From NCBI GenBank assembly GCA_018971185.1, contig JAGXBH010000001.1:1-64000 (forward strand): a stretch of 64,000 nt of DNA. The letters run 5' to 3'. The position numbers and the translations under genes are program-made. The stretch is from Acidobacteriota bacterium. Lineage in GTDB: Bacteria; Actinomycetota; Acidimicrobiia; Acidimicrobiales; RAAP-2. Numbering within the stretch: the first letter of the stretch is position 1; each line of letters begins with the position of its first letter. The notes below the pieces were generated by a model. The model was not told where the DNA came from. It saw nothing but the letters and a program-made list of their open reading frames with translations, and made no database searches. Below, piece after piece: positions 43,142-55,640 of this stretch.

Positions 43142-44479
43142 ATGGTTTCGTCCCTTGAATCAACAGTCGGCACCGAGCGCAAGGTCATCACCGAGTTGCC
43201 CGGTCCCAAGTCGCGCGCGCTGCACGAGCGCCGCCAGGCGGTGGTGAGCGCTGGCGTGACCAACGGCTTCACCATCTACATCGACCGCGCGGAGGGAGCC
43301 ATCGTGGTCGACATCGACGGTAACCACATCCTGGACCTCGGGTCGGGCATCGCCGTCACCGGCATCGGCCACGCGGTCCCCGAGTTGGTCGACGCGGTCT
43401 CCACCCAGGTCGCGGCCTTCACCCACACCTGCTTCATGGTCACCCCCTACGAGAGTTACGTGCAAGTGTGCGAGGAGCTCGCCGCACTCACCCCGGGCAC
43501 CCACGCCAAGACCTCGGCGCTGTTCAACTCCGGGGCGGAGGCGGTCGAGAACGCCGTCAAGATCGCCCGTCACGCGACCCGACGGCCCGCCGTCATCGTG
43601 TTCGACCACGCCTACCACGGTCGGACCAATCTCACGATGGCCCTGACCGCCAAGAACATGCCGTACAAGGACGGTTTCGGTCCGTTCGCCGGTGAGGTGT
43701 ACCGCGTCGCGATGAGCTACCCGTTCCACGACGGCCTCTCGGGCGCCGCCGCCGCCGCCCGGGCCATCGCCGAGATCGAGACCCAGGTGGGCGCGCAGAA
43801 CGTGGCGGCGCTGCTGATCGAGCCCATCCAGGGCGAGGGTGGCTTCATCGTCCCCGCCGAGGGATTCCTCCCCGCCCTGTCGAAGTGGACCACCGACAAC
43901 GGCGTCGTCTTCATCGCCGACGAGATCCAGAGCGGTTTCGGACGCACCGGCGAGTGGTTCGCGGTCGACCACGAGGGCGTGGTCCCCGACATCGTCACCA
44001 CGGCCAAGGGTCTGGCGGGTGGCATGCCGCTCGCGGGGGTCACGGGTCGAGCCGAGATCATGAACTCCGTGCACGAAGGTGGCCTCGGAGGCACCTATGG
44101 CGGCAACCCCGTCGCGGCCGTCGCGGCCCTCGCGGCGATCCGGGTCATGCGCGACCGCAATCTCGTGGCCCGTGCCCGCGAACTCGAGACGTTGCTCTTC
44201 ACCCACCTCGAGGCACTCGCCCGCGACGTCACGATCATCGGAGAGGTTCGCGGACGAGGGGCCATGGTGGCGATCGAACTGGTCGAACCGGGTACCAAGC
44301 GCCCGAACGCCGCCGCCGCCAAGGCCGTGGTGAAGTACTGCAACGACCACGGTGTCATCGCGCTGAGTTGCGGCACCTACGGCAACGTGATCAGACTCCT
44401 CCCGCCCCTGGTGATCACCGACGAGCAGTTGGCCGACGGGCTGGGCGTCCTCGCCGAGGCGGTGCGCTCGGTCAGTTGA
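43142..44479 (+). CDS. gabT: 4-aminobutyrate aminotransferase (class III, PLP)
   Basis: This 445-aa enzyme has the class III aminotransferase features: LFNSGAEAVENAVKIAR for PLP phosphate binding, FDHAYHGRTNL, LIEPIQGEGGFIVP, ADEIQSGFGRTG with the PLP-binding Asp, and TTAKGLAGGMPLAGV with the Schiff-base Lys. Sequence follows actinobacterial GabT, which converts GABA and 2-oxoglutarate to succinate semialdehyde and glutamate. AGGAG is the Shine-Dalgarno. A possible succinate-semialdehyde-type dehydrogenase (46.7 kb) is near but not adjacent. Its 3' end overlaps the convergent MarP-like gene by 8 bp. Confidence 0.92.
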   Translation: MVSSLESTVGTERKVITELPGPKSRALHERRQAVVSAGVTNGFTIYIDRAEGAIVVDIDGNHILDLGSGIAVTGIGHAVPELVDAVSTQVAAFTHTCFMVTPYESYVQVCEELAALTPGTHAKTSALFNSGAEAVENAVKIARHATRRPAVIVFDHAYHGRTNLTMALTAKNMPYKDGFGPFAGEVYRVAMSYPFHDGLSGAAAAARAIAEIETQVGAQNVAALLIEPIQGEGGFIVPAEGFLPALSKWTTDNGVVFIADEIQSGFGRTGEWFAVDHEGVVPDIVTTAKGLAGGMPLAGVTGRAEIMNSVHEGGLGGTYGGNPVAAVAALAAIRVMRDRNLVARARELETLLFTHLEALARDVTIIGEVRGRGAMVAIELVEPGTKRPNAAAAKAVVKYCNDHGVIALSCGTYGNVIRLLPPLVITDEQLADGLGVLAEAVRSVS

Positions 44480-45614
44480 CGCAGCGCTGCGTCGAGACGC
44501 TGGTCGCGCTCACGCGCGCCAGCACGTCACGGAGTTGACCCACGGGCACCGCGTAGGACAACGAGTGATCCGCCGCCGAGCGCTGGGCGGCCACCGCGAC
44601 GACCTGGCCCTTCACCATCACCGGCGCGCCGTATTGCGACGTGGTGAGCGACGCGACCACCACCACCATCGTGCGCGTGAAGACCGGGCCGCTGTAGATG
44701 CTCCTGCCCGCGCTGGTGACCTGACCCGCGACGATGGCCTGGGTCACCGCTCGATCGGTGGCCGAGCGAAAGCCCACCACCTGCGCGGAGGACGCCGGCG
44801 CCGCGCTGGGACCCAGGGTGAGGGGCGCCGCGTCCAACCCGGGGACGCTCAACACCGCGAGATCACTGCGGGGGTCGAAGGCCACCACGCGGCCCGCGCG
44901 GCCCGCGACCGAGAACGACCGCTCGCCCGCGACGACGTGCGCCAGGGTGACGACCTGATGGGGTGCCACGACGAATCCCGTGGCCGTGGTGGCTACGCGA
45001 CAGGCACCCCCGGCCACGACGGTCACCACGCCGGCGGGGGCGCTCACGTCGTGGCGCGTGCTCAACGGGCGCGGCGAATACGCGGGCAGGGCCGGTTCGA
45101 CCACGTTGGCGAAGAGACTCGGCACGTTCAGTTGGCTCAGCACGCCTTGGATGCGGCCCGCCACCGCGGGCGGCGCGGGGAGGACGCGCTGCACGTACCT
45201 CAGGATGACCGACCGGTTCACGGACGTGGCGACGGTGCTCCACGGCACCACCGCCAAGAGGGCGCCGACGAGCCAGCAGCTGATGAGCATCCCCGCCACC
45301 CCCACACTCGCCCCGAGCAGTGAGTCCGCCAGGCCCAGGTGGCCCTCGTGGAGTCGTCGCGAGAAGACGCCACCGAAGTATCTCAGGATGAGGCTTCCCG
45401 CCACGGTGCTGGCGATGATGATCAGGACCACGTCGAGGGGCCTCCACGCGGTCTGCGTCACGTGCGGCACCACCGCGGCCGCTAGGTAGAGGCCGCCGAT
45501 CAGTCCGATGAGGCGCCCGAGGAGCGCCCCGAGTTGGCGAACCAGGCCCTGCGTCCAGCCGCGAAGTCCCGACACGACCACCAGAGAGGCAATCGCCACG
45601 TCGATCCAACTCAT
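44472..45614 (-). CDS. MarP-like CvpA/trypsin-fold membrane protein, catalytic Ser replaced
   Basis: This 380-aa protein has four N-terminal TM helices (CvpA/colicin V production domain, about 5-125) and a C-terminal chymotrypsin-fold domain (about 190-375), the architecture of the acid-resistance protease MarP. His226 (TLAHVVAG) and Asp251 (RSDLAVL) are in place, but the usual GNSGGP nucleophile loop reads SQYGAP, with Tyr328 where Ser belongs. Cys205 and Cys378 match the MarP disulfide positions. It is probably an inactive or altered protease. TACTGT sits exactly 6 nt before the ATG. Confidence 0.85.
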   Translation of the reverse strand: MSWIDVAIASLVVVSGLRGWTQGLVRQLGALLGRLIGLIGGLYLAAAVVPHVTQTAWRPLDVVLIIIASTVAGSLILRYFGGVFSRRLHEGHLGLADSLLGASVGVAGMLISCWLVGALLAVVPWSTVATSVNRSVILRYVQRVLPAPPAVAGRIQGVLSQLNVPSLFANVVEPALPAYSPRPLSTRHDVSAPAGVVTVVAGGACRVATTATGFVVAPHQVVTLAHVVAGERSFSVAGRAGRVVAFDPRSDLAVLSVPGLDAAPLTLGPSAAPASSAQVVGFRSATDRAVTQAIVAGQVTSAGRSIYSGPVFTRTMVVVVASLTTSQYGAPVMVKGQVVAVAAQRSAADHSLSYAVPVGQLRDVLARVSATSVSTQRCVN

Positions 45615-45626: not shown

Positions 45627-45699
45627 GGCCGTGGACGTCCGAGGGCCACGTCGCTCACTAGCATTGTCTCACCGAGGTCTTGTACGAAAGATGCGCTCC

Positions 45700-46722
45700 A
45701 TGAGCCGACACCACATGATGACGCGCGGCGTCGGTCGAAGCGTCGTCCTCCTCACGACGGTCTCGTTACTGTTCACGGGTTGTGCCCAAGCGGCGGTGCG
45801 CCTGAGCGCCACGGGTCAACCCTCACTGAGCCTGGCCGCGCCACTCACCACGTTGGGCTGCACCAGCACGGGTGCCTGCATCACGCTCGGGGCGTCGGGC
45901 GGCACCAACGCCCCGACGACCGTGGGGCAGGTCCGCAACCTCAAGGGCGTCTGGTCCGCACTCAACGTGCCCCCCGCACCGGTCGCGGCGCTCAACGACG
46001 CCGCCTGTGGGGCGCTCACGTGCCTCGTCGGCGGCACCAAGGAAGGCATCGACCTCGTGTGGTCGATCAACGCCAGCAGCGGCGCCATCCGCTCACTCGC
46101 GGGTCCCGCGGGCGGTGTCGTGATCAGGAACCTGGCCTGCGCGAGCGACGCGCGCTGCTGGCTACTCGACCAGGACAGCCGCGGACGCACTCGATTCGTC
46201 GCCACGACCACCGCTGGCGCCACGTGGCAAGCACCACGCACCTTGGCGTGGGCGTCGAACCGCACGACGGCGTTCGACTGCACCACGCTCTCGCAGTGTG
46301 ACGTCGCCACGACGTCGGCCTCGCACCACGTGGTCCTTCGCGAGACGCTGAACAACGGGGCGACCTGGCGGCTCGTCGCGACACCTCCCTCGTGGACCTC
46401 GCTGTCGTCGCTGCGTTGCGATCCCACTTGCGTCGCCCTGGTCACCACCCCCGTCGGCTCGGCCCTCGTCTACCAGGTGAAGAGTGGTTGGAAGACCTCG
46501 CCACTCTCGTTCGCCGCGACGTCGTTGGCCTGCGCGTCGTCGAGCACCTGCGTGGCGGTCGGACACTACGTGAACAACACCGCCGCGATGGCGGAGTGGA
46601 AGGGCGCCGCGGTCCACGCCGTGAGTCTGAGTTACGTGCCCACGCCGCTCAACCACGTGGCCTGTGCTCGCGCCGTGTGCGTCGCCACGGGCGTGACCAC
46701 GGTGGTCGCGCTGCAACCCTAG
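45700..46722 (+). CDS. Lipoprotein, probable seven-bladed beta-propeller with Cys pairs
   Basis: ATG at 45700 gives 340 aa; an ATG at 45691 is an alternative. A signal peptide ends in the lipobox LFTGC (Cys28). The mature protein holds seven regularly spaced Cys pairs (54/60, 103/108, 147/153, 194/200, 240/244, 278/284, 322/327), 38-49 residues apart, each followed by a hydrophobic strand. This suggests a seven-bladed propeller with a disulfide at each blade. TTAGATW and NNGATWRL resemble BNR/sialidase-type turns. Function is unknown. It is divergent from the MarP-like gene and convergent with the dehydrogenase gene. Confidence 0.75.
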   Translation: MSRHHMMTRGVGRSVVLLTTVSLLFTGCAQAAVRLSATGQPSLSLAAPLTTLGCTSTGACITLGASGGTNAPTTVGQVRNLKGVWSALNVPPAPVAALNDAACGALTCLVGGTKEGIDLVWSINASSGAIRSLAGPAGGVVIRNLACASDARCWLLDQDSRGRTRFVATTTAGATWQAPRTLAWASNRTTAFDCTTLSQCDVATTSASHHVVLRETLNNGATWRLVATPPSWTSLSSLRCDPTCVALVTTPVGSALVYQVKSGWKTSPLSFAATSLACASSSTCVAVGHYVNNTAAMAEWKGAAVHAVSLSYVPTPLNHVACARAVCVATGVTTVVALQP

Positions 46723-48428
46723 GAGCGTAGGGCCGACCACGCCAGGCGAGGTACCGCGAGCCAGGACTCCGTGCACTGCAACTCGAAGAGCCGCCGCATC
46801 GCCGTCGCCGAGTTCGCGTGGGTCACGAACCACGCGGGCGTCGGACGGGCGATGAAGGGGCCGCGCAAGACGGACTTCTGCGTCCTGGCGAGCATGTAGG
46901 TGTTGCCGACCACGCCGACCCCCGACTGGATATCCGTCGGCACGTGACCGCGATACGCGCCCCAGGGGGTCGTACCCGCCATGATGCCCAGCGCGTGCCA
47001 CACGTTGACGCCGATGGTCCCGTAGCGCAGCTCGCCCAGCGCCCACTCCAGCGTCGCCCCCATGTCGGGGCGTCGAGCGCTGCGCGGGCTGATGAGGATC
47101 GTCGCGCAGAGCGTGCCAAAGAGGACCTCGTTGCAGAAGCCCACGGCCCGACGCAGGAACCCTTCGGGCGAGTCGGCGTCGAGCCCGGTCTCGCTGGTGA
47201 GGGCGCAGAACGCCTCCTCGCGGAAGCACGGATGACCCTCGTCCGAAGGGTCGACGCCGCGCACCAGGGTCCAGGGCATCTCACCAGGGCCGGCGCGACC
47301 GATATGACGCGCGTCGCCGTGCGCCGCGAGGAAGCGAGCACGCCGCTCGAAGGCGCCGGGGTAGTAGGCGAGTCGCGTCGGCACCGTGGCGAGCACGCCC
47401 TCGAGCGCGTCGAGGAACTCCGCGCGCTGGGCCCATCGTGAGTGGGTCACGATGACTCGTGGGGTCAGGCAATTGAATCCCGCATTGTTCACGATCATCG
47501 TCGCCACGTGCGCCGCCTGGTACTCAATCTCGCGACGGCTCCACTCCCCAGGCACGACGATCACCGGCGACACGTTGCCCAACTCGGCGGTGACGGGCTT
47601 GTCCAACGCACCCGAGGACTTCCCCGCGGTCCCGGCGACCACGGCGTCGTAGGTGGACGCCGCACCGGTGATGTGCACCGCGCCGACGTCCGGGTGCTGC
47701 ACGAGGTGGCGACCCACGTCGACGTCACCGGTGGTGATGTGCAGGACGCCGGCCTCGATGAACACCGCTAAAGCCCGACGCCAGTAGTCGACGAGGTACT
47801 CGTTGATCGGACTGGCCTTGACGACCACCACCCGCCCCTCCCCCATCAACTGATGGATCGCGTCACGCGGCGCGAGGGAGGCGACGTTCCCCGCGCCCAG
47901 TACGAGGGTCACGCCCGCGTGTTGAGCCGCCGACCTGTACGCCGGCGCCTGTTCGGCTCGCAATTGCGACTCGTCCACCCCGGGTTCGATCCACACCTCG
48001 GCGCGCAGCCCGGCGTAGGCGACGCGGTCGAGCAGCGAGGACGGCATGACCGGGACGGACAGGCGATTCGCGCTGCGATGACGCACTCGTCCTGGATACC
48101 GTGGACGCCCCCGACGCGAGAGGTCGCTCAGCGAACGTCGGTACGCCGTCATGAGTCGTACCAACATGCCCACCCCGGCGAGCAGCTCCTCGCCACCGTC
48201 GGCCCCGCCGGGGTCGAGTCCCTTCGCCCGACACGCCGCCTCGTTCCACGCCGGCGCGACGTCGTGGGTGTCGGCGATCGCGCGCTCGAGCATCCTCGCG
48301 CGCTCGTCGGCCGGGGTCCGCGCCCAGCGCGGGGCGTTACGACGCAGCGCACGCACCGCCTCGTCGAGCGCGGCTCGCGATGATTCGTCCGCGACGTCGT
48401 CGGCGTCGTGAGCGGCGTTTCGTCCCAT
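46719..48428 (-). CDS. Aldehyde dehydrogenase superfamily protein
   Basis: ATG at 48428 with GGGAGGG upstream gives 569 aa. The Rossmann part contains LGAGNVASL and VVVKASPINEYL. VTAELGNVSPVIV is the ELGG-type motif with Gly changed to Asn, and NNAGFNCLTPRVIV carries the probable catalytic Cys. It is longer than typical ALDHs and has an N-terminal helical extension of about 130 residues. It resembles coenzyme-A acylating or LuxC-like reductases more than succinate-semialdehyde dehydrogenase, but I cannot assign the substrate. Its stop overlaps that of the lipoprotein gene. Confidence 0.8.
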   Translation of the reverse strand: MGRNAAHDADDVADESSRAALDEAVRALRRNAPRWARTPADERARMLERAIADTHDVAPAWNEAACRAKGLDPGGADGGEELLAGVGMLVRLMTAYRRSLSDLSRRGRPRYPGRVRHRSANRLSVPVMPSSLLDRVAYAGLRAEVWIEPGVDESQLRAEQAPAYRSAAQHAGVTLVLGAGNVASLAPRDAIHQLMGEGRVVVVKASPINEYLVDYWRRALAVFIEAGVLHITTGDVDVGRHLVQHPDVGAVHITGAASTYDAVVAGTAGKSSGALDKPVTAELGNVSPVIVVPGEWSRREIEYQAAHVATMIVNNAGFNCLTPRVIVTHSRWAQRAEFLDALEGVLATVPTRLAYYPGAFERRARFLAAHGDARHIGRAGPGEMPWTLVRGVDPSDEGHPCFREEAFCALTSETGLDADSPEGFLRRAVGFCNEVLFGTLCATILISPRSARRPDMGATLEWALGELRYGTIGVNVWHALGIMAGTTPWGAYRGHVPTDIQSGVGVVGNTYMLARTQKSVLRGPFIARPTPAWFVTHANSATAMRRLFELQCTESWLAVPRLAWSALRS

Positions 48429-48447
48429 GGCCCTCCCGTCGCTATGG

Positions 48448-48453
48448 GAGACT
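48448..48453 (+). promoter_or_regulatory. -10-like element of the DUF4328 gene (GAGACT)
   Basis: GAGACT ends 6 nt before the ATG at 48460. The start of the divergent dehydrogenase gene is only 31 bp away, leaving no room for a long leader. Confidence 0.3.
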
Positions 48454-48459
48454 ACAGGG

Positions 48460-49083
48460 ATGAGCGACGTCGCCACCCAGATCCCGGCGGGTTGGTATCC
48501 CGACCCGTCCGGCGAGCGCCAGTGGCGCGTCTGGAACGGATCGCAGTGGTCCCACCTCACCCGGCCCTACGGCGAGCCCCCGGCCGCGACCCCGACCAAA
48601 CGTTTCGGACTCGAGGAACTCGCGACGTTGGACTCCCTGCGTCGCATCACCCAGTTCGGCGTCCTGGCCTACTACACGGGCTTCGCCCTTCTCATCAGCG
48701 TGGTGGGCCACTGGCCCGGACGCGCGCACCCGGTCTCGGAGCGATTCGCGAGCGCGGCCCTCGGCGCAGCCATCGGACTGACGCTGATCGGCACCATCTA
48801 CTTCGCGATGTGCGTGCGAGCGCTGCGAGGACGATGGTCGCTCGAGGGGCTGATCCCCGTGGTGAACACGTTCGTGGCCGCGCGAGAGATGTCGCGACGC
48901 CTCGCGATGGCGGGCGCCGGTCCTCGTATTGTGCTCGACATCCTGCTCACGTTGGGCTTCGTCGCGCTCTGCCCCACCCAGCCGTGGGTCGGGGTGGCAC
49001 TCGCCAGCGTCGCCTTCAATCAATTGGCCCGCGCCTACGCGCTCATCGATCTCCTCAGCGGTCCCGCGCTGCGCACGGCATAA
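48460..49083 (+). CDS. DUF2510-DUF4328 membrane protein
   Basis: ATG at 48460 gives 207 aa. The N-terminus PAGWYPDPSGERQWRVWNG is a DUF2510 WYPDP module, common in actinobacterial membrane proteins. About four TM segments follow in a DUF4328-type domain (near 65-85, 105-130, 160-180, 185-200), with SLEGLIPVVNTFVAAREM between. Function is unknown. It is upstream of the nitrobindin-like gene by 39 bp, probably cotranscribed. Confidence 0.8.
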   Translation: MSDVATQIPAGWYPDPSGERQWRVWNGSQWSHLTRPYGEPPAATPTKRFGLEELATLDSLRRITQFGVLAYYTGFALLISVVGHWPGRAHPVSERFASAALGAAIGLTLIGTIYFAMCVRALRGRWSLEGLIPVVNTFVAAREMSRRLAMAGAGPRIVLDILLTLGFVALCPTQPWVGVALASVAFNQLARAYALIDLLSGPALRTA

Positions 49084-52719: not shown

Positions 52720-53285
52720 GTCCGTCCTTCACGGTGTCGAGTCCTGGTCATTCTTAACACCTCCACGTGCGGCGATTCCATGCGTCGACCGGGCTGATCC
52801 TTCGCCGCGGTGCCACCGTGCACGCGTAGCACCTCCACGTGACGTGCTCGACCCCGACCTCGCCTCAGGAGACGACGCGTGGCCCACGCCGGACGCGACG
52901 CGTCGTCACCGGCGCCGCGTCGAGGGAGGTCGCGTGGGGCCACGAGTCAGCAGACGCCGCACGACGCCATCGCGCGGAGGGGACGTCGAAACGCCTAGTG
53001 GGCGTCACCGAGGGAGGGCGCTCTGGTGGTGACCGCAGCCGAGTCCACGGTCACCACCGAGCCCAACACGCATCCGACGACCGCGAGACCCCTGGGGGCC
53101 CTGATTACACGCCGGCGTCGATGCGGCATGACCGCAGAGTATCACCCCCGCAAATTCGCGGGCCACTCTTCTTCTCCCTTATCGCTTCGCGTGGTTCTGG
53201 CGCTCGGTCGTCGGAGCGAGTTGGCCGTCCAAGACTGGGCACTTCGACCCGGGCGCCGCGCTCCGAAGTGGTCCATGATGAGGGG
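52720..53285. other. 566-bp region upstream of the metal ATPase
   Basis: The ATPase frame stays open upstream to 52839, but the extra 149 codons are low-complexity Arg/Thr/Ser and not conserved-looking, so I treat this as noncoding. No other gene is supported. CATGAT at 53274-53279 lies exactly 6 nt before the ATPase ATG and may be its -10. Confidence 0.5.
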
Positions 53286-55640
53286 ATGAGCGAATCCGCA
53301 CCCCACGTGGGACCCGGTCGGGCCCGGTGGTCGAGTTTCGCGCTACCCGGCACCGTGGGGACCGGCCTGCTGGTGGGATTCGTCTTCTCTCTCGCCTCGT
53401 CACCACGTGGGGCGCACCTCGCGTGGTTGGCCGTGGGCGTGATCGGCGGCGTCTTCTCGATCACCGACCTCGTGCTGGAACTTCGTCGTGGGCGATTCGG
53501 CATCGACCCCCTCGCGCTCCTCTCGATCGTGGGCGCCCTCCTGGTGCGCGAATACCTCGCCGCCGCGATCATCAGCGTGATGCTCGCCAGCGGTCGCTCG
53601 CTCGAACGGTGGGCCACCCATCGCGCCCGGCGTGAACTCCAGGCGCTCCTGGTCCGTGTCCCCAAGACCGCTCACGTGCTGCGCGACGGCGCCGTGACGA
53701 CGTTGCCCCTGGCGAGCGTCGCCCCCGGCGACCTCGTCCTCGTCGAGTCGGGAGAGATGGTTTCCATCGACGGGACGATCATTTCCGAGGCCGCGTCGCT
53801 CGACGAGTCCGCGCTGACCGGTGAGTCGTTGCCCGTCGAGCGCACCCTCGGCGAGCACGTGAGGAGCGGGGTCCTCAACGCCGGGTCCCCCTTCGAGATC
53901 CGCGCCACCGCCACCGCCGACGAGAGCACGTACGCGGGGATCATCCGGTTGGTGCGTGACGCGGAGTCGACTCCGGTGCCATTCGTGCGCCTGGCCGACC
54001 GGTACTCACAGGCCTTCTTGGTCGTCGCGCTCCTCGTGGCCGGGGCCGCGTGGCTGTTGGGCGGTCCGACGCGCGCCGTTGCGGTCCTCGTGGTGGCGAC
54101 CCCGTGCCCCTTGATCCTCGCCGTGCCCGTCGCGCTGGTCTCGGGTCTATCGCGCGCCGCGCAGATGGGGATCATCGTCAAGAGTGGCGCCGTGCTCGAG
54201 CAACTCTCGCACTGTCGGACTCTCCTCATCGATAAGACCGGCACCATCACCCGCGGTCGACCCGAACTGAACGAGGTCCTCGTCGCCGGATCGATGCCGG
54301 CCGATGAGCTCCTTCGACTGGCGGGGTCACTCGATCAGACGTCGCCCCACGTCCTGGCGAACGCCATCGTCCAAGCCGCCCTGAGCCGTCGGCTCGAACT
54401 CGCAATGCCCGCCTCGGTCGAGGAAGTCGCCGGTCAGGGCATCCGCGGCGACGTGGAAGGTCGACACGTCCGGGTCGGGACCGCCGCGTGGTGCGGGGTC
54501 TCGGGTTCAGCGTCGTGGAGCCACGCGGCGCGACGCCGGGCTCGGTTGGACGGGGCCCTGACGGTCTTCGTCGGCGTCGACGGATCCGCCGCGGGCGCGC
54601 TGGTCTTCGACGACCCGATCCGCCCCGACGTCGTGCGCACCCTGCGTTCCCTGCGTCGTCGCGGCATCACCCGTATCGCGATGGTGACGGGGGACCGCAT
54701 CGAGGTGGCCGAGACCGTCTGCGCGACCATCGGCGTCGACGCGGTGCTGGCCGAACGCACCCCCCAGGAGAAGCTCGACATCGCGCGCGACGAATCGGCC
54801 CGCGCGCCGACCATCATGGTGGGTGACGGCATCAACGACGCCCCGGCACTGGCGCTCGCTGACGTGGGGGTGGCGATGGGTTCGCGCGCGGCGACCGCGG
54901 CCTCCGAGGCCGCTGACGCGATCCTGACGTCGGACCGTCTCGACCGGTTGGACGACGCCGTGTCGATCGCCCAGCGCTCACTGTTCATCGCGCGTCAGAG
55001 CATGATCACCGGCATCTCACTCTCCCTGGTGGCGATGGTCGTCGCGTCCATCGGTTGGCTCCCCGCCGTCGGAGGAGCACTGCTGCAGGAGGTGATCGAC
55101 GTCGCGGTGATCGTCAACTCCCTGCGAGCCCTGCGACCCCGAGAGCGTCCCGTTCGCCTCAGCCCCGACGAGTTGACAGTGACTGCGCACTTTCGCGCGG
55201 AGCACGTGAACTTGCGCGCGCAGATCGACGAGATCCGTCGGGTCGCCGACGAGTTGGGCACGCTCAGCCCCGAGTCCACCATCGCCACCGTGCGCGCCGT
55301 GCAAAAGATGCTTCTCGAGGAGATCCTGCCGCACGAGGAGGCCGAGGAGTCGACGCTCTATCCAGTACTCGAGCGAGTGATGGGTGGACGCGAGCCGCTG
55401 GGCGCGATGAGCCACGCCCACCGCGAGATCGCGCACCAGATCCGTCGTCTGGGTCAAGTGATCGATGACCTGCCCGAACACGAGATGGAGGACGCCGACC
55501 TGGCGGAGCTGCGCGCGCTGCTCTACGGACTCCACGTGATCGTGAAACTCCACACCGCCCAGGAGGAGGAGAACTACCTCTACTTCGACGACCGTCACCT
55601 CGACGCGCCGACCACGCCGATGACGGGCGCACTCACCTGA
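53286..55640 (+). CDS. P1B-5-like heavy-metal ATPase with C-terminal hemerythrin domain
   Basis: This 784-aa P-type ATPase has no N-terminal metal-binding domain. TM4-type motif ATPCPL (271-276) replaces the CPC of Cu/Zn pumps; actuator LTGES (177-181), phosphorylation site DKTGT (316-320), SPH (353-355) and GDGINDAP (513-520) are intact. Residues about 630-770 form a hemerythrin-like four-helix domain with likely di-iron ligands His640, His683/Glu687, His710 or 712, His750, His755 and Glu759 or 760. TPC plus hemerythrin is the hallmark of P1B-5 (Nia) pumps, which export Fe and Ni. No regulator is adjacent. Confidence 0.9.
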   Translation: MSESAPHVGPGRARWSSFALPGTVGTGLLVGFVFSLASSPRGAHLAWLAVGVIGGVFSITDLVLELRRGRFGIDPLALLSIVGALLVREYLAAAIISVMLASGRSLERWATHRARRELQALLVRVPKTAHVLRDGAVTTLPLASVAPGDLVLVESGEMVSIDGTIISEAASLDESALTGESLPVERTLGEHVRSGVLNAGSPFEIRATATADESTYAGIIRLVRDAESTPVPFVRLADRYSQAFLVVALLVAGAAWLLGGPTRAVAVLVVATPCPLILAVPVALVSGLSRAAQMGIIVKSGAVLEQLSHCRTLLIDKTGTITRGRPELNEVLVAGSMPADELLRLAGSLDQTSPHVLANAIVQAALSRRLELAMPASVEEVAGQGIRGDVEGRHVRVGTAAWCGVSGSASWSHAARRRARLDGALTVFVGVDGSAAGALVFDDPIRPDVVRTLRSLRRRGITRIAMVTGDRIEVAETVCATIGVDAVLAERTPQEKLDIARDESARAPTIMVGDGINDAPALALADVGVAMGSRAATAASEAADAILTSDRLDRLDDAVSIAQRSLFIARQSMITGISLSLVAMVVASIGWLPAVGGALLQEVIDVAVIVNSLRALRPRERPVRLSPDELTVTAHFRAEHVNLRAQIDEIRRVADELGTLSPESTIATVRAVQKMLLEEILPHEEAEESTLYPVLERVMGGREPLGAMSHAHREIAHQIRRLGQVIDDLPEHEMEDADLAELRALLYGLHVIVKLHTAQEEENYLYFDDRHLDAPTTPMTGALT

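Follow-up and report, generated by a model that had tools for sequence, protein, structure and literature searches.

The window, that is the whole stretch of 64,000 nucleotides that was analysed, carries a gene encoding a MarP-type protein in which the serine nucleophile is replaced by a tyrosine at residue 328 (the Tyr328 protein). This gene is interpreted, with moderate confidence, as the single-copy MarP ortholog of an uncultured bacterium that became a pseudoprotease at its original locus, with no duplicate involved, and whose remaining function is non-proteolytic. The pseudoprotease status is well supported by the predicted active site, and the protein most likely cannot cut. As far as the assembly shows, the gene is present in a single copy and, judged by its neighbours, is located at its ancestral locus.

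Domain architecture and assignment to the MarP family

The gene and the two domains deduced from its product are located as follows:

44472..45614, minus strand: MarP-ortholog open reading frame of 380 amino acids with an ATG start, overlapping the convergent aminotransferase gene by 8 bases
45180..45605, minus strand: CvpA (Colicin_V) membrane domain, residues 4-145, Pfam
44592..44984, minus strand: Trypsin_2 (chymotrypsin-like) domain, residues 211-341, Pfam

The MarP-like architecture of a CvpA part plus a protease part, as proposed in the original prediction, was confirmed by several searches. Pfam recognised both Colicin_V (60 bits) and Trypsin_2, the NCBIfam MarP model NF033740 matched the Tyr328 protein from end to end (E 1e-54, 186.1 bits), and the top PDB match by phmmer was 3k6y (6e-17), which is described as the MarP protease domain (PMC6628586). 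Three hydrophobic segments (residues 31-49, 59-77 and 93-122) are located within the CvpA domain, and the order by which MarP is recognised, a CvpA-like membrane N-terminus followed by a trypsin-like domain, is thus present. The DegP/HtrA models gave weak matches only, and a PDZ domain was absent from the Pfam scan of the protein.

The score of 186.1 bits is below the curated NF033740 cut-off of 250 bits. Among ten rows of the alignment described below that were tested with this model, two from outside the genus reached 297 and 336 bits and three canonical genus rows 247-283 bits, whereas four relatives from the clade of the Tyr328 protein reached 178-197 bits and the sister row L042 had the lowest score of 116 bits. 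Accordingly, all four clade relatives tested fell below the cut-off, as did L042 and the canonical genus row L008 (247 bits). Rows L008 and L031 come from different contigs of the same assembly (G026), which contains two MarP copies and is possibly a strain mixture. The nearest named records, detected by one pattern-based scan, were 'Actinomycetota bacterium', 'Actinomycetes bacterium' and 'Deltaproteobacteria bacterium isolate bog_1112' with 58-61% identity, and the MarP frame is intact in two of these three. An AlphaFold2 model of the Tyr328 protein, computed together with two relatives, had a mean pLDDT of 38 and was unusable.

Active-site residues and the nucleophile loop

The residues of the outer domain that are relevant to catalysis and folding are encoded at the following positions:

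45000..45002, minus strand: codon of Cys205, a MarP-type cysteine, C in 105 of 105 rows
44937..44939, minus strand: codon of His226, the catalytic-triad histidine, H in 105 of 105 rows
44862..44864, minus strand: codon of Asp251, the catalytic-triad aspartate, D in 105 of 105 rows
44622..44642, minus strand: degenerate nucleophile/oxyanion loop, residues 325-331, T-S-Q-Y-G-A-P against the canonical P-G-N-S-G-S-P
44637..44639, minus strand: codon of Ser326 at the oxyanion-hole glycine position, aligned to a Gly of 3k6y
44631..44633, minus strand: codon of Tyr328 (TAC) at the serine nucleophile position, from the alignment with 3k6y and relatives
44481..44483, minus strand: codon of Cys378, the second MarP-type cysteine, C in 90 rows and a gap in 15 rows of the 105-row alignment

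The replacement of the catalytic serine by tyrosine in a loop that reads SQYGAP, which had been noticed at the outset, is borne out by the alignment with 3k6y and by the recurrence of the tyrosine in a second assembly (G112). The alignment with 3k6y contains no gap across the loop and places T-T-S-Q-Y-G-A-P over E-Q-G-D-S-G-G-P, so that the catalytic serine is paired with Tyr328, the preceding residue with Gln327 and the glycine in front of that with Ser326. We take Ser326, Gln327 and Tyr328 to be chymotrypsin positions 193, 194 and 195, with position 193 being the glycine of the oxyanion hole. The catalytic triad is therefore incomplete, since His226 and Asp251 are present and the serine has become Tyr328, and this degenerate triad is found together with a non-glycine residue at position 193.

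His226, Asp251 and both MarP-type cysteines are kept, as originally stated. Both Cys205 and Cys378 have cysteine counterparts in 3k6y and in the relatives, and they are predicted to form a disulphide pair that brackets the protease domain.

Conservation of the nucleophile among relatives

A multiple alignment of 115 rows including the window protein was reduced to 105 full-length rows by removing ten rows shorter than 330 amino acids. Five of these short rows (L021, L058, L076, L077 and L078) reach the nucleophile and all carry serine; the nucleophile is not covered by L041 or by the N-terminal fragments of L021 and L058, and two pieces of L110 are outside that count. MarP matches were detected in 75 of 99 genomes of the genus, 69 of which contributed the 70 genus rows, with the partial matches in G117 and G129 left out. 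The other families are represented by 33 matching genomes, with the partial matches in G066, G076 and G085 left out, and for the other genera of the family rows were taken from 44 of the 64 genomes with matches. The MarP frames of L021 (G017), L058 (G038), L110 (G103) and L095 are broken by a stop or a shift in draft assemblies, which may reflect either decay or assembly error.

In the 105 rows the nucleophile is Ser in 101, Tyr in two, Ala in one and Val in one. Serine is present in 66 of the 70 genus rows, in all 35 rows from outside the genus and in all 40 further rows of the family, that is in 75 of 75 rows outside the genus, whereas His226 and Asp251 are invariant in all 145 rows (105 plus 40). 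Glycine occupies position 326 in 64 of the 70 genus rows and, without exception, in the 35 rows of other genera or families and the 40 further family rows. The second tyrosine was detected in assembly G112 (row L079), whose protein is 75% identical to the Tyr328 protein over the whole length and 72% identical over the protease part. The synonymous codon differences between the two (given below) suggest that the tyrosine is older than the split of the two species. The tyrosine does not extend over the whole clade: among the seven nearest rows it occurs in two, serine in four and alanine in one, and it is shared only with the nearest relative found.

The lineage carrying the nucleophile changes

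A MarP tree was built without the loop columns. It places the window protein in a clade of seven rows together with L079, L002, L003, L080, L004 and L005, and in a larger set of eleven rows that additionally comprises L085 and the trio L042, L043 and L109 (G044, G011 and G119). A matching group of ten rows with a support of 97 was obtained in the tree of the aminotransferase (gabT), from which L109 is absent. All four genus rows without the serine (Tyr, Tyr, Ala and Val) fall into this one eleven-row lineage with a degenerate loop. The nucleophile residue is switched three times along the MarP tree, and two switches are seen in the gabT tree, which lacks L109. The Ala (L005) and the Val (L109) each rest on one assembly.

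Within the clade, the loop T-S-Q-Y-G-A-P of the window protein corresponds to P-S-Q-Y-G-G-P in L079 and to S-E-A-G-A-P in L005, and loops of the A-E-S, S-E-S, S-E-S and G-E-S type are present in L002, L003, L080 and L004, respectively. A non-glycine residue at position 326 was found in six of the seven nearest rows, with L004 keeping the glycine, compared with none of the 63 other genus rows. The loop of the trio contains two extra residues, and its nucleophile is Ser in L042, Ser in L043 and Val in L109.

Gene order, orthology and absence of MarP

The neighbouring genes considered in this analysis are:

43142..44479, plus strand: class-III aminotransferase (gabT-like, provisional name), conserved convergent neighbour, used as a yardstick for orthology, rates and trees
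45631..46722, plus strand: putative secreted lipoprotein (reading of the N-terminus, no Pfam match), conserved divergent neighbour
46719..48560, minus strand: aldehyde-dehydrogenase-like gene (ALDH), conserved neighbour that adjoins MarP in another genus too (L113)

The ALDH-like protein comprises 613 amino acids, and Pfam recognises only its middle part (residues 216-386). Most of the MarP-less relatives that were inspected have the putative lipoprotein gene at this locus, and in the majority of relatives compared its product is less similar than MarP.

The gene order tadA, aminotransferase, MarP, lipoprotein, ALDH, DUF2510 and THAP4-type protein recurs in part or as a whole in relatives. At least one common neighbour was present at 20 of 23 loci examined, and L093/L119 and L094/L120 each denote one and the same stretch; none of the listed neighbours was present at L128, L130 and L132. 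This common gene order identifies the window gene as the MarP ortholog and not as a spare copy. In the source genome (2.18 Mb in 92 contigs, 89% complete) one MarP match was detected, and the search for a second, intact MarP that had been suggested with the original prediction revealed none in this 89% complete assembly. The genome encodes one separate HtrA-PDZ-like protease with an intact G-D-S-G-G-P motif and two NlpC/P60 proteins, the latter on contigs C52 and C2.

A MarP match was absent in 24 of the 99 genus genomes, nine of which have a completeness of 90% or more and a contamination of 5% or less, while the absences in the rest may partly be assembly gaps. An orthologous aminotransferase locus was present in 20 of these 24 genomes, and the other four contain only distant aminotransferases. 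At 18 of the 20 readable loci (L138-L157) the lipoprotein or ALDH neighbour follows directly and MarP is missing; the two exceptions are L146, where about 1 kb is unaccounted for, and L156, which ends within the aminotransferase gene. Since the order ALDH-MarP-gabT is kept at L113 in another genus of the family, the absence in the genus reads as deletion. On the gabT tree the absence corresponds to seven changes, or to eight wholly absent groups. MarP is dispensable in the genus.

A link between the presence or absence of MarP and RipA-type hydrolases was also considered and rejected as uninformative, since NlpC/P60 domains are encoded in 99 of 99 genus genomes, whether MarP is present or not.

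Constraint on the outer domain

Across the seven-row clade, 52 of 186 protease positions are invariant. Two stretches of the outer domain are best conserved in the clade, one of which is R-x-I-Y-S-G-x-x-F-x-R-T-M (residues 304-316): the 15-residue segments covering residues 295-319 contain eight invariant positions of 15, and the only other segment to reach this value is 215-229, which contains His226. Residues 304-316, which are away from the nucleophile loop in the sequence, may be regarded as a candidate contact surface. The retention of His226 and Asp251 is weak evidence for function, because these residues vary in no row and because, of the 46 protease positions conserved among canonical members of the genus, 24 are in any case retained throughout the seven nearest rows. 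The protease parts of the tyrosine pair are 72% identical, so that the retention of Tyr in one pair is often expected by chance and does not prove selection.

Alternative explanations for the tyrosine

A sequencing or assembly error or a strain mixture might be considered, since the source genome and nearly all relatives are draft assemblies in many contigs. The same tyrosine is, however, encoded by a different codon in a second species, and the Gln, Tyr and Gly codons of the window protein and L079 (CAA/CAG, TAC/TAT and GGC/GGG) all differ synonymously, which practically excludes assembly error for the tyrosine. As the remaining loop residues are changed too, this explanation is given next to no probability. 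It is also very improbable that the protein is an active hydrolase using either Ser326 or the tyrosine itself, even though Ser326 is located only two residues away and His226 and Asp251 are retained. The possibility of Ser326 as an alternative nucleophile, raised with the original prediction, was checked: Ser326 is aligned to the oxyanion-hole glycine and is therefore not a shifted nucleophile, and in L003 and L080 a serine at this position coexists with a serine at position 328. A non-glycine residue at the oxyanion position of the chymotrypsin fold is expected to damage the oxyanion hole, and we know of no member of this fold with a tyrosine nucleophile.

The strongest competitor is slow erosion, in which MarP proteolysis is no longer needed, the protease part is drifting, only the CvpA domain (or nothing) is under selection and the gene is heading for deletion as in its cousins. 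Besides the genomes and loci without MarP and the three separate losses of the serine in one lineage, erosion is favoured by the number of conserved protease positions lost by the seven-row clade, which amounts to 17 of 39 beyond the nucleophile loop and five of seven within it. Outside the loop the trio has lost 24 of 39 positions, compared with four of 39 in a canonical clade that also has seven rows and whose protease/CvpA rate is similar to that of the clade of the Tyr328 protein; losses in seven other canonical groups range from 0 to 6, and one canonical group of four has lost 15 of 42. The difference between the CvpA part (5 of 22 positions lost) and the protease part (22 of 46) was not significant in Fisher's test (p 0.065). 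Pairwise protease/CvpA distance ratios, binned by gabT distance, are 1.17-1.54 in the clade versus 0.86-1.00 in canonical pairs, but the tree-based ratio of 1.88 for the clade (1.29 for the whole tree) is matched or exceeded by two canonical clades with 1.96 and 2.17, so that the rate evidence is weak; the lost-position count separates the clade from canonical groups better than the rate test. The dN/dS values determined by the NG86 method, which are near saturation, are 0.17 for the CvpA part and 0.31 for the protease part of the window protein versus L079, 0.19-0.41 for the protease part in six other clade pairs and 0.14-0.25 for the CvpA part across all seven pairs. The protease values of the clade are at the upper end of those of 14 canonical pairs (0.05-0.40) but are below 1 in all seven clade pairs computed. 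Moreover, all seven nearest MarP proteins are full length, and the invariant protease positions argue against simple drift; the frame of a further group record, L095, is broken, possibly by an assembly fault. Since the clade has lost conserved positions and the gene is missing from the locus elsewhere in the genus, erosion retains an appreciable probability, although it is clearly less probable than a pseudoprotease with a remaining function. The original claim of a pseudoprotease scaffold or sensor, as opposed to decay, thus stands with respect to the pseudoprotease, whereas the exclusion of decay holds only in part: the open frame and the protease dN/dS of 0.31 speak for it, the lost positions and the missing gene at the locus of other species against it. 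No evidence for a sensor role was found.

Comparison with known proteins

Ser343 of MarP is reportedly needed for acid resistance. An S343A allele of MarP has been tested. MarP (Rv3671c) of mycobacteria is studied as a protease of acid resistance, and inhibitors are directed at its active site (PMC4992679); under acid stress its reported substrates include the peptidoglycan hydrolase RipA (PMC6628586). The Tyr328 protein resembles MarP in its CvpA-type membrane N-terminus, its chymotrypsin-like outer domain, the His, the Asp and the two cysteines (PMC4992679, PMC6628586), but it differs in the lack of the serine nucleophile and of the oxyanion glycine as well as in its model score of 186 bits against the cut-off of 250.

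By analogy, MamO of magnetotactic bacteria may be considered the closest precedent seen for the Tyr328 protein. As described in PMC4794232, it likewise combines a trypsin-like domain fused to a membrane domain with a non-serine nucleophile, a non-glycine residue at position 193 and a His and Asp that are kept despite lost proteolysis. The same source assigns non-catalytic functions to MamO and temperature-dependent defects to its His and Asp mutants (PMC4794232). MamO differs in having Thr as the nucleophile residue, a metal site and a TauE domain at the C-terminus, and the authors tie the inactivation to redundancy with a second protease (PMC4794232), whereas the Tyr328 protein is a single-copy ortholog changed in place.

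CvpA (colicin V production) proteins have the Colicin_V membrane domain in common with the Tyr328 protein. Stand-alone CvpA proteins contain no protease domain. HtrA/DegP proteins, among them serine mutants that retain chaperone activity, have the Trypsin_2 fold in common with the Tyr328 protein, in which Pfam recognised no PDZ domain. In the open-licence part of PMC no paper on a MarP pseudoprotease or on a CvpA-serine protease in actinobacteria was found, and none of the papers on bacterial chymotrypsin-type pseudoproteases concerned MarP by title; the papers on HtrA-related pseudoproteases included the one on MamO.

Proposed route to a non-cutting MarP

In the favoured interpretation as a pseudoprotease that arose in place, acyl-enzyme chemistry should not occur, as a serine hydroxyl is missing at position 195 and the glycine at position 193 is replaced, and the bulky tyrosine next to His226 probably occupies the catalytic cleft. 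The CvpA membrane domain would carry an outer domain whose fold is stabilised by the disulphide and which binds an envelope partner or keeps it in position; the role of His226, Asp251 and the two cysteines would then be structural. The loss appears stepwise: loop residues changed first, in a lineage with less need for cleavage, and the serine was lost afterwards, at least three times. A more specific version has the single-copy envelope protease converted, without duplication, into a non-cutting regulator, with a CvpA-held, Tyr-plugged outer domain that would still recognise the former class of substrates, such as NlpC/P60 cell-wall hydrolases, and hold instead of cleave them, the same switch having occurred independently in two other species (Ala and Val); we regard this version as rather unlikely.

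Since the nucleophile position of the same ortholog is occupied by Ser, Tyr, Ala or Val in this lineage, and since some species of the genus lack the gene, the roles of the CvpA domain and of a non-catalytic outer domain can be asked for within one group of relatives. The data also suggest an order of events, loop first and serine later, for a pseudoprotease made without duplication.

Elsewhere in the window, a P-type ATPase of 933 amino acids is encoded at 52839-55640 on the plus strand, comprising an E1-E2_ATPase domain, a HAD hydrolase domain and a C-terminal hemerythrin domain, and it presumably resembles hemerythrin-bearing metal ATPases.
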